This document shows, one piece after another, positions 39,246 through 42,355 of a stretch of DNA of 64,000 bases (position 1 is its first letter; each line of letters starts with the position of its first letter). The stretch comes from Lasiodiplodia sp. COLG20 (Eukaryota; Ascomycota; Dothideomycetes; Botryosphaeriales; Botryosphaeriaceae): the NCBI GenBank assembly GCA_009801085.1, contig VNWV01000004.1, positions 806,001 to 870,000 of the forward strand, given 5' to 3'. The notes below the pieces were generated by a model. It saw nothing but the letters and a program-made list of their open reading frames with translations. It had not been told where the DNA came from and did not search any database. The translations under genes were made by a program, and so were the position numbers.

Positions 39246-41121
39246 CTAAACAGAGACGGGAATGTCTTCCGCGTCCGTGATGCACCCCTGGCTGGCGTCC
39301 TTCACCAGCTTGGCGTACTTGGACAGCGTGCCCTTCGAGTACTTGAGCGGCGGCGCAACCCACGCCGCCCTGCGCTTCGCCAGCTCCTCCTCGCCGACGT
39401 GCAGGTTCATCTCATTCGTCTCGGCGTCGATGGAAATCTCGTCACCGTCCTTCACGAGAGCGATGGGTCCACCGACCTGCGCCTCGGGCACAATGTGGCC
39501 GATCAGGAAGCCGTGACTGCCACCGCTGAAGCGCCCGTCTGTGATGAGCGCGACGTCGTGGCCCAGTCCCGCCCCCATAATGGCAGAGCTAGGCTTCAAC
39601 ATCTCCGGCATGCCCGGACCGCCCTTGGGACCCTCGTACCGGATGACCACGACAGTCTTCTCACCCTTCTTGATCTCGCCCTTCTCCAGCGCCTCGATGA
39701 AGAGATCCTCATCATCGTAGCACTTGGCGTTGCCGACGAACCGCAGACCCTCCTTACCGGTGATTTTGCCAACGCAGCCGCCAGGCGCCAGGCTGCCGCG
39801 CAGAATCTGCAAGTGGCCCGTCTCCTTGATGGGGTTGCTCAGGGGACGGAAGATCTGCTGCTCCTTGGGGAAGTCGGGTGCCTTCTCCACGTTCTCCTTC
39901 AGCGTCTTGCCCGTGACGGTCATCTGGTTGCCGTCCAGGAGGCCTTCCTTGAGCAAGAACTTGACGAGAGCGGGCGTACCGCCGATTTCGAACAGGTCGG
40001 CGAAGACGTACTTTCCAGACGGCTTCAGGTCCGCGAGGAAAGGAGTGCGATCACTGACGGTCTGGAAGTCGTCGATGGTGAGCTTAATACCAACCGAGTC
40101 GGCGATGGCAATCAAGTGGAGAACGGCATTGGTCGAGCCACCAGTGATGGTGACGAGAACCATGGCGTTCTCGAACGCTTGCCGAGTAAGAATGTCACGA
40201 GGGCGGATGTCTTCCTTCAACAGGTTCTTAATGGCACCACCGGCAGCCAAACATTCGAGGACCTTGGCGTTGGACTCGGCCGGGTTGGACGAAGAGCCGG
40301 GCAGAGTCATACCCATGACCTCGATGGCGCTGGCCATGGTGTTGGCGGTGTACATGCCACCGCAAGCGCCGCTGCCGGGGCAAGCGTGGCGGATGATATC
40401 AAAGCGCTCATCCTCGTTGATTTCACCGGTGATGAACTGACCATAGGCCTGGAATGCGGAGACTAGGTCGAGCTTAGGGTGGGCGGGAAGCTTTCCGCAG
40501 CCGGCGGCAATAGTGCCGCCGTAGACCATGAGCGAGGGCCTGTTGACGCGACCCATGGCCATCAAGACACCAGGCATGTTCTTATCGCAACCAGGAACCG
40601 AGATGTTGGCATCGTACCATTGAGCGTTCATGACGGTCTCAATGGAGTCTGCAATCAGGTCGCGCGACTGGAGCGAGTACCTCATGCCCTTGGTACCCAT
40701 GGAAATACCGTCACTGACACCAATGGTGTTGAACTGCATGCCCCACAGGCCGGCACGCTGCACACCCTCCTTGATCTTGTTGTTGAGGTCCATCAGGTGC
40801 ATGTTGCACGGGTTGCCGGTGTACCAGACGGACGAAATGCCGACCTGGGCCTTGTGCATGTCCTCCTCCTTCAGGCCGGTGGCGTAGAGCATGGCTTGCG
40901 AGGCACCCTGCGACTTGGGCTGGGTGATGCCACGGCTGACCTTGTTGAGGCCTTCATCGGCGCGACGGGCGGCGGTCGAGGAGAGAGCCCTCCTGTCAGA
41001 CGAGTCAATGGAGAGCACATTGGAGCTGTTGGCGAAGATGCAAGACTCACAACGACCGCCACTGCGAGCTGGCGCGCATTGCCGGCCGCAGCGGCATGGT
41101 GTGTAACCTGGGGAGAAGCAT
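39246..41121 (-). CDS. ILV3: Dihydroxy-acid dehydratase, mitochondrial
   Basis: Two exons, 41121-41051 and 40992-39246, give 605 aa. The N-terminal ~30 residues (Arg/Ser/Leu-rich, no acidic residues) form a mitochondrial targeting peptide split by the intron. The body is a textbook IlvD/Edd family enzyme: [16 protein letters not shown] and [16 protein letters not shown] carry the Fe-S cluster cysteines, and [10 protein letters not shown] and the C-terminal AGLGHD regions are intact. It dehydrates 2,3-dihydroxy-isovalerate and 2,3-dihydroxy-3-methylvalerate, the third step of valine/isoleucine synthesis. The first intron leaves an open frame through it, so an incorrect internal start could be predicted. 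Confidence 0.97.
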
Positions 41122-42166
41122 TGCGATGTTGCTGGACAGTCCTCCGCCAGTGAAGCCCGCAGGTGAGTCGAATTGGACTTCTTCGAAAAGTTCGCGAGGC
41201 CGGCTGTGACTCAGCGAATGAAGCCGTCGATAATTATTCTGCGCGCCCTGGCTGGCTTAGCGTTGGAGCTTGCGAGCCGCCTCCTCCGACCTCGGAGCAT
41301 GTGGCGCATTCCATTGGCCGCCGCCCAAGCAACCCACGCCCGCATCCAACTGTCAACACCACGCCATTGCCCTACGAGGCGTGCGGCTGAAGTGTTTGTT
41401 TCCTCGCTGCATGGCCAAGACAGGCAACCTCTCTGCGAGACCCTAGCGCAAGCTTCCTCGCGGTCCGCGTCCCGTAGCGCGCCAGGCGCACCCACGGCCG
41501 TTTGCGGCGCCCTGCCAGCACTTGCGCAACCGCCGCCCGCCTCATTTGGCCATGGGTCTTTCCCTTCTTAGCGCATAGTCGTTAAAGTTTCAGGTGTTGC
41601 ACAATCCTGTGCTCAGTCCGTCTGTTTCACCGTGTGCCCGAACCCTCTCCAGCGCTCCTACGGCGACACCTGGCGCGTGAGCAGCTGCTTCATCATCGTC
41701 AGCACGCCCCTCTGTCCCTGCGCAGCCTGTCCGAGCGTGAAACTCTGCAACAACCGCGGCGTTGGGAGCCCACCTGCCCCGTTCTGCGCAGGGCGGATGA
41801 GAGAGCTTGGACGCCTCAATTTACTGGAAATTTGCACACAATAATCAACCACTCCACCGGATCACTCTCATACACACCAATCAGTCAGCAGCATCATCAT
41901 CTGCCCAATGACGCTGGCCATCGCAACGGCCCAGAACCCTAACCCACCTAATCGAAGCATTCGTCCTACTCCAGTTCTCCGCAGCCGCGGCTCCCTACGC
42001 ACGAATCATGATTCGATCTCCCATCAAATGATGCTCGTTGACCGGAATCTCAAATGACAAATTGGCGCCTTGTCGCCCACCCCCCTTTCCCACCGCCTTC
42101 AGATGCTGTTTTTAGAAACTCACGATCTTGTAAACAACTGGCCACTGCTTACATCATCAACCAATC
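41122..42166. promoter_or_regulatory. ILV3 promoter region and tRNA 5' flank
   Basis: A 1-kb region without a supported gene; short frames on both strands lack family resemblance. I did not find a clear Leu3-type CCGGNNCCGG site. Confidence 0.5.
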
Positions 42167-42331
42167 AGTCCTATGGTCTAGTGGTATGACGTTCGCTTCA
42201 CAGCAATTCCTCTGGCCCCCAGAGCGAGTTCTTGGAGCGCGAAAGGTCCCGGGTTCGATCGTAAGTTTGCCAGCTGCCGAGCCGTCGTGAAGAGAGCATC
42301 ATCTAACAAGAGACTTAGCCCGGTGGGACTA
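42167..42331 (+). tRNA. tRNA-Val(CAC) with two introns, the second of spliceosomal type in the T-arm
   Basis: Mature parts are 42167-42202, 42238-42260 and 42319-42331 (72 nt with discriminator A). They fold completely. The acceptor AGTCCTA pairs with TGGGACT (one T-G wobble). The D-arm runs from position 42176 (G10) with GTCT/TGAC. The anticodon stem is TTCGC/GCGAA with loop TTCACAC, anticodon CAC at 42199-42201. The T-stem CCGGG pairs with CCCGG around loop TTCGATC. Intron 1 (42203-42237, 35 nt) sits at the canonical 37/38 site. Intron 2 (42261-42318, 58 nt) splits the T-arm exactly between positions 60 and 61; it starts GTAAGT, has ATCTAACAAG 10-20 nt before its end, and ends TTAG. The A box is intact, while the last two bases of the B box are altered by intron 2 (ggttcgatcgt). 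No run of four T occurs before the terminator. Confidence 0.9.
42261..42318 (+). other. Putative spliceosomal-type intron inside tRNA-Val
   Basis: A 58-nt insert with a perfect GTAAGT 5' site, a CTAAC branch-point consensus at 42303-42307 and TTAG at the 3' end, the same signal set as the short protein-gene introns in this window. Removing it restores the T-stem and the whole acceptor stem base for base. Confidence 0.8.
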
Positions 42332-42349
42332 CACACACAACGTGATTTC

Positions 42350-42355
42350 TTTTTT
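42350..42355 (+). terminator. Pol III terminator of tRNA-Val
   Basis: A run of six T, 19 bp after the tRNA discriminator base, is the first T4+ run downstream of the gene. Confidence 0.75.

Follow-up and report, generated by a model that had tools for sequence, protein, structure and literature searches.

How is a nuclear tRNA matured when its gene carries an intron of the mRNA type? The spliceosome removes introns from mRNA, while those of tRNA are taken out by an endonuclease and a ligase. The question is raised by a tRNA-Val(CAC) gene at positions 42167-42331 (plus strand) of the window, which is the whole stretch of 64,000 nucleotides from Lasiodiplodia sp. COLG20 analysed here. A sequence-only reading had described this gene as split by a canonical anticodon-loop intron and, in addition, by a spliceosomal-type insert in the T-arm. 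To judge from its sequence features, the gene quite probably belongs to a set of 11 or more nuclear tRNA genes with a short U2-type intron outside the anticodon loop, which would be removed by the spliceosome from an RNA polymerase III precursor.

The tRNA-Val(CAC) gene of the window

All parts of the gene lie on the plus strand, as read from the sequence and from ARAGORN after intron removal. Exon 1 (42167..42202, positions 1-37 of the tRNA) holds the anticodon CAC at 42199-42201 and an intact A box, TGGTCTAGTGG (42174..42184). A canonical anticodon-loop intron of 35 nt follows at 37/38 (42203..42237; parse and ARAGORN), and exon 2 (42238..42260, positions 38-60) includes the 5′ strand of the T-stem. 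The second intron, a GT-AG intron of mRNA type delimited by the parse, ARAGORN and a signal count, occupies 58 nt of the T-arm at 60/61 (42261..42318). Its 5′ splice site is GTAAGT (42261..42266) and its 3′ splice site TAG (42316..42318), within a terminal TTAG; in its branch site CTAAC (42303..42307) the branching A is position 42306, which lies 12 nt before the end of the intron. Exon 3 (42319..42331, positions 61-73) supplies the 3′ strands of the T-stem and acceptor stem and the discriminator A. A T6 run 19 nt 3′ of the gene (42350..42355) is a likely Pol III terminator. The B box (42252..42262) reads GGTTCGATC followed by GT in place of CC at its last two bases, so that its end is altered by the intron; both boxes were assigned by their general consensus. 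The coordinates, the insertion point at 60/61, the second canonical intron, the three mRNA-type signals and the altered B box had all been given in the sequence-only reading, and were correct.

The gene escaped the standard tools. ARAGORN, whether or not it searched for anticodon introns, called no tRNA in the window, and it called nothing in the unspliced gene when this was submitted by itself; Rfam cmscan of the window found no family at gathering score. When the 58 nt were removed, ARAGORN returned a full cloverleaf under the name Ser(cga), because it misplaced the anticodon intron, and when both introns were removed it called tRNA-Val(cac) with a complete cloverleaf and the CAC anticodon. 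As had been claimed, the T-arm is complete only with 42261-42318 taken out; the joined form has a 7-bp acceptor stem and a 5-bp T-stem (ARAGORN).

The junction of the 58-nt intron cannot be slid by even one base in either direction (shift 0/0), and the tRNA structure alone therefore sets its ends, which prove to be GT...AG. In windows of 58 nt with fixed ends, the strict set of signals (GTRNGT, CTRAY with its A 8-25 nt from the end, and YAG) occurred in 9 of 598,768 cases among the collected loci, or 1.5e-5, a rough figure because the sampled loci overlap and include real introns. With its ends fixed and its signals this rare, a chance match was rejected for the Val insert. The B-box core followed by a 5′ splice site (GGTTCRA N0-5 GTRNGT) was found at 97 places in the genome, and at 178 with the pattern reversed. 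Among the 97, Val(CAC) alone scored as a real tRNA (22.8, against 22.7-24.0 for intact genes); the next-best insert candidate scored 21.6 and had an insert of 165 nt.

The sequence-only reading had suggested a search for another, intact tRNA-Val(CAC) copy, and one is present on the minus strand of contig C78 (C78:1891545-1891652). This paralog has the same 5′ half and an anticodon intron of 49 nt, and no T-arm insert. Its T-stem is CTGGG/CCCAG as against CCGGG/CCCGG in the window gene, where the insert lies between the two strands; one paired change, C-G versus T-A in the paralog, thus spans the Val intron. The existence of the paralog makes Val(CAC) the weakest case among the interrupted genes; taken by itself, it agrees in its redundancy with the redundant, silent copy that the sequence-only reading had named as a refutation. 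A repeated or introner-like element was rejected as the source of the Val insert, since a DNA search matched only the gene itself and its paralog at E <= 10; of the eleven introns this repeat search covered those of Val and Arg(UCU)-1.

Interrupted tRNA genes and their splice signals

The Val gene is not a single case: in the same genome at least 11 tRNA genes, of five isoacceptors, are interrupted by GT-AG inserts elsewhere than in the anticodon loop, and six insertion positions are represented. Besides Val(CAC), with its T-arm insert, the genes are as follows. Arg(UCU)-1, first seen as a partial Rfam match at C34:2417127, has a D-arm insert of 52 nt at 11/12 (GTATGT...CTGAC...TAG) and no anticodon intron. 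Arg(UCU)-2 (C1:529230-529580) is interrupted at 13/14, Arg(CCG) (C67:1297370-1297700) at 26/27 and Ala(UGC) (L189, C1:1343975-1344300) at 9/10, and these three have anticodon introns of 22, 18 and 13 nt, respectively. Finally, six Phe(GAA) genes, located on C1, C34 (two), C56 (two) and C67, are interrupted in the anticodon stem at 30/31; the copy C34a also has an anticodon intron of 35 nt.

The joined forms gave cloverleafs with the right anticodons in all six genes submitted to ARAGORN, six of the 11. Joined Arg(UCU)-1 had every stem full; the unspliced gene was also called tRNA-Arg(tct), with a broken acceptor stem and a shortened D-stem, and the fact that it was called at all speaks against our reading. 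Among the Phe copies, the reading reached the 3′ end in C34a only, which in joined form gives tRNA-Phe(gaa); C34b was read into the T-arm and differs from C34a by one base in the variable loop, and the other four were read up to the anticodon loop or just inside the anticodon intron. The acceptor stem of Ala(UGC) keeps G3-U70 and has one T-T mismatch (6:67), the latter an unfavourable feature.

All 11 introns are 52-60 nt long, start with GTAAGT, GTATGT or GTTAGY and end in YAG, and the GT-AG ends are thus universal in the set. Every one has a CTRAY branch site, the A of which lies 10-12 nt before the end of the intron. The 5′ splice site is GTRNGT in five; the six Phe introns differ at the third base, with GTTAGT in five and GTTAGC in one, and the exon bases before this site are CAG. 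The strict set of signals is present in five of the 11 introns and has a fixed-end window frequency of 5e-6 to 1.7e-5, and the looser set (GT, CTRAY and AG) of the six Phe introns has one of 1.6e-4 to 2.0e-4. On these sequence features the introns were assigned to the U2 type. Of the six genes tested for sliding of the junction, only Val and Arg(UCU)-2 were unslidable. The slack in the other four is a point against our reading: the junction can move one base in Arg(UCU)-1, Arg(CCG) and Ala and four bases in Phe C34a, so that the GT-AG placement is one of two equal ones in the former three and one of five in the latter.

In the alignment of the six Phe genes the intron takes up 61 columns, of which only 3 of the 45 interior ones are invariant, and the mean pairwise identity of the interior is 0.44 (0.31-0.66). 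The signals themselves are invariant throughout: GTTAG (5/5), CACTAAC (7/7) and AG (2/2). The likeness to the short mRNA introns nearby, on which the sequence-only reading had remarked, was borne out, as the tRNA introns match the regional GTRNGT candidates. There were 8 mRNA-intron candidates of this type in the window (7 distinct 5′ sites) versus 1 in the reversed control, and 44 distinct 5′ sites versus 13 in a set of loci, some of them overlapping, that amounts to 303,944 bases; these lists are enriched for mRNA introns and are not clean.

Introns outside the anticodon loop may also be of the non-canonical kind found in archaea, nucleomorphs and Cyanidioschyzon merolae, where the tRNA splicing endonuclease cuts at bulge-helix-bulge motifs, and such introns are known at 30/31, 59/60 and other sites (PMC4090602). 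The central helix of such a motif pairs at 4 of 4 positions in the six Phe genes, and so it does in Arg(CCG) when one base of slack is allowed. The strict central helix has 1-3 of 4 pairs in the five other genes, however, and the inner-helix run was 0 in all 11 genes and the outer-helix run 0 in nine, 1 in Val and 2 in Arg(CCG). A full bulge-helix-bulge, with two 3-nt bulges, a 4-bp helix and flanking helices, was found in none of the 11, the Phe central helix notwithstanding. Nor would cutting by the endonuclease offer any reason why the Phe introns should conserve a branch site and a 3′ splice site, and we consider this explanation very improbable.

Survey of the genome and the Phe(GAA) and Arg(UCU) copies

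Patterns joining the T-arm or B box to a T-run gave 232 matches in one case, the first of which were considered, and 53, 33 and 29 in the others. Forty places were picked by eye from two lists of T-arm-plus-terminator matches, and a T-stem was present in 39; the one without (L170) was dropped. At most an anticodon-loop insert was needed to parse 35 of the 39, three of them odd, and 3 fitted only with a GT-AG insert elsewhere, namely Arg(UCU)-2, Arg(CCG) and Ala(UGC). One (L197) was not parsed by the script and was left out of the 11. Nine additional loci, eight from the pattern lists and one from Rfam only, were all ordinary tRNA genes. A D-arm pattern gave 67 matches (73 with the pattern reversed), of which the six Phe places, L209, L212 and the loci of L197, the Lys genes and contig C47 were read. 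The Rfam scan for tRNA scored 63 of 1009 candidates. The survey is incomplete, and the parsed list is without, for example, Ile(AAU), Pro, His, Met, Trp and Asn. In contigs of other organisms, the D-arm plus splice-site pattern matched 16 stretches, all bacterial by title, and 2 viral ones, all as pattern matches only.

Some further observations were made on the parsed set. It is rich in introns, as the majority of the distinct parsed nuclear tRNA sequences have an anticodon-loop insert of at least 10 nt. Nine loci (L162, L166, L169, L174, L175, L178, L180, L181 and L182) form a family with the acceptor GAGCCGA or GAGCCGG, an anticodon intron of 44-46 nt and the parsed anticodon CTA (six) or ATA (three); these are amber-suppressor-like or Tyr-like, and either the anticodon is odd or the intron edge is mis-set. 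The three odd loci L194, L195 and L199 are Gly-like with a GYGTYGG acceptor; their anticodon-loop inserts are very long (77, 195 and 105 nt) and their parsed anticodons odd (TTT, CTC and CTA, respectively). At L197 (C18:151530-151860) and L209 (C1:7103550-7103740) the D-arm TAGCTCAGTTGGTAGAGC occurs and no tRNA was parsed, by script for the former and by eye for the latter; each may be either a pseudogene or another multi-intron tRNA.

The D-arm pattern found six genes with TAGCTCACTTGGGAGAGC, all of them Phe(GAA) and all with the insert at 30/31, and no intact Phe(GAA) was found among the six places with the Phe D-arm in the 43.5-Mb, 88-contig assembly. A 24-mer probe from the variable loop and T-arm of Arg(UCU) matched at 10 places, exactly at two, both of them the intron-bearing genes; the other eight were seven Lys(CTT)-type genes (2 mismatches) and one Arg(CCT) (3 mismatches). 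With this probe, at up to 3 mismatches, no intact Arg(UCU) was found in the same assembly. A DNA search with Arg(UCU)-1 recovered, besides the query gene, four Lys(CTT) genes at 84% and missed Arg(UCU)-2, from which it follows that such a search can miss copies with anticodon introns; the absence of intact copies therefore rests on the D-arm pattern and the 24-mer probe. Since no intact copy of either tRNA was found, removal of the introns looks obligatory.

This bears on a further possibility, that the genes are decaying pseudogenes in which intron-like DNA sits in redundant, silent copies and is never removed. Such an explanation would suit Val(CAC) with its intact paralog, and according to PMC4090602 short insertions in the D- or T-arm of eukaryotic tRNA genes mostly affect a single copy among many synonymous ones and are presumed to mark pseudogenes. 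What it does not fit is the interruption of all copies found of Phe(GAA) (6/6) and Arg(UCU) (2/2). Positions 1-37 are, moreover, identical in the six Phe genes, the introns of which have diverged apart from the splice signals. Between the two Arg(UCU) genes there are differences in 6 stem pairs, 5 of which were changed on both sides, and 3 of these 5 lie in the acceptor stem, whose strands flank the D-arm intron. The codons concerned are also in use, with 31 AGA and 161 TTT/TTC among 4,441 codons in 7 crude long ORFs. The neighbour of the Val gene in the window, a dihydroxy-acid dehydratase ORF (39249-41207, minus strand), contains 0 AGA codons, and a need for AGA is not demonstrable there; its product matches a Lasiodiplodia theobromae protein at 99% identity, with 89% of the query covered, and two Diplodia proteins at 96 and 95%, which on this one protein points to a Lasiodiplodia-like member of the Botryosphaeriaceae. 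Taken over the whole set, decay into pseudogenes is extremely unlikely. The sequence-only reading had left the choice between action of the spliceosome on a Pol III transcript and a newly invaded tRNA. Recent invasion would suit Val taken alone and does not fit the genome, where working splicing is favoured over it by the interruption of every Phe and Arg(UCU) copy found; the former alternative is the one we favour, with both the removal and the polymerase as parts that we infer.

Transcription, precedents and maturation

Runs of T5-T7 were found 9-19 nt 3′ of five of the six genes checked. This evidence is partly circular, because TTTT was required by the very pattern through which Arg(UCU)-2, Arg(CCG) and Ala were found, and only the runs of Val and Arg(UCU)-1 are independent of the search pattern. 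No T4 was seen 3′ of Phe C34a in the 22 nt read, which does not favour Pol III. TTTT is absent from 10 of the 11 introns; its presence in the intron of Arg(UCU)-1 is likewise unfavourable. Ala and the two Arg(UCU) genes have a split A box, which goes against our reading; in the six Phe genes and Arg(CCG) the A box is unbroken. The B box is unbroken in Arg(CCG), and equally so in C34a, the only Phe copy that was read through it. The three split A boxes and the altered Val B box should cost TFIIIC binding.

Spliceosomal splicing is mostly coupled to RNA polymerase II, and the spliceosome might accordingly act on Pol II transcripts that span the tRNA genes, from which the tRNA is then cut out. 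The disturbed boxes in four genes, the lack of a nearby T-run at Phe C34a and the T-runs that the search pattern itself demanded would all agree with such read-through. Against it stand the T-runs after Val and Arg(UCU)-1, which were found by other routes, the whole A box in seven genes and the whole B box in two, and the U6 RNA of fission yeast, which has an mRNA-type intron that is spliced (PMC10484740) and is a Pol III product. Pol II read-through is therefore regarded as unlikely, and transcription by Pol III as the better reading of the sequence.

Introns of the mRNA type are also known in the rRNA genes of ascomycetes, lichens included, and a messenger RNA intron has reportedly been described in the 18S rDNA of deuteromycetes. 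These resemble the present introns in looking spliceosomal and in residing in a structured non-coding RNA, and differ in that rRNA is a Pol I transcript. The canonical 37/38 introns occur in the same genes (Val, Phe C34a, Arg(UCU)-2, Arg(CCG) and Ala), whereas they have another site, other signals and presumably another enzyme, and Arg(UCU)-1 is without one. The U6 gene of Schizosaccharomyces pombe has an mRNA-type intron that is spliced (PMC10484740; PMC10581693), in support of the fungal U6 introns to which the sequence-only reading had referred. The likeness lies in a short intron of the mRNA type and in the transcript, which is made by Pol III for U6 and probably so here; in contrast, the host is here a tRNA, with six sites in five isoacceptors. 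The reverse-splicing idea for U6 rests on the nearness of the intron to the catalytic bases of U6, unlike the situation in the tRNA hosts. The U6 snRNA of the present genome, found as a single copy of 100 nt, has no intron, a point against our reading, and a U6 intron as precedent within the same fungus was therefore dropped.

True non-canonical tRNA introns of eukaryotes are described in PMC4090602 for nucleomorphs and Cyanidioschyzon merolae. Together with those of archaea they resemble ours in lying outside 37/38, sometimes two or three to a gene and in Phe(GAA) among others, whereas they are of the bulge-helix-bulge type and served by the tRNA endonuclease, or are only 3-24 nt long in Guillardia (PMC4090602); those described here measure 52-60 nt and show GT, a branch site and AG. 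In the text of PMC4090602 the word stem 'spliceosom' occurs 0 times. For tRNAscan-SE 2.0 the search for non-canonical introns is described for archaeal candidates (PMC8450103). That none had been described in a nuclear tRNA, as the sequence-only reading held, agrees with the absence of any report of spliceosomal introns in tRNA genes among the matches listed from the open-licence PMC literature without preprints, judged by title and opening of the abstract; given this coverage, it is no proof of absence. What appears new is the tRNA host, as mRNA-type introns in a probable Pol III RNA are known already for U6.

The maturation of these tRNAs may be depicted as follows. RNA polymerase III would make an intron-bearing pre-tRNA, in which GTRNGT (GTTAGY in Phe), CTRAY and YAG would be recognised by the spliceosome and the intron removed by the lariat route. 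Joining would restore the D-, anticodon- or T-arm, and the tRNA endonuclease and ligase would then take out the ordinary anticodon intron where one is present. The spliceosomal step is placed first on account of the sites of the introns: those of Phe and Arg(CCG) disrupt the anticodon stem, and the rest disrupt arms that the endonuclease presumably requires. We infer from this the order of the steps, and likewise infer the agent of the first step and the removal of the introns in the cell.

If this is correct, translation depends directly on the mRNA-splicing machine, and in the genes with both kinds of intron one small RNA passes through both splicing systems. Spliceosomal splicing would be obligatory for the reading of UUU/UUC and AGA. 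The action of the spliceosome on a short, capless and highly structured RNA would become testable, and tRNA genes would be able to gain and keep spliceosomal introns. As the window gene was missed by both ARAGORN and Rfam, genes like it may be more frequent than is recognised, and tRNAs that seem absent from fungal genomes may prove to have them. The sequence evidence suggests that the mRNA-splicing machine is needed for tRNA production in this plant-associated fungus. In the lineage of this fungus, the spliceosome is likely to be an obligate maturation enzyme, acting on the Pol III precursors of cytosolic tRNA-Phe(GAA) and tRNA-Arg(UCU) before these, in many cases, undergo ordinary tRNA splicing, and the tRNA genes of the lineage are likely to be open to spliceosomal intron gain.
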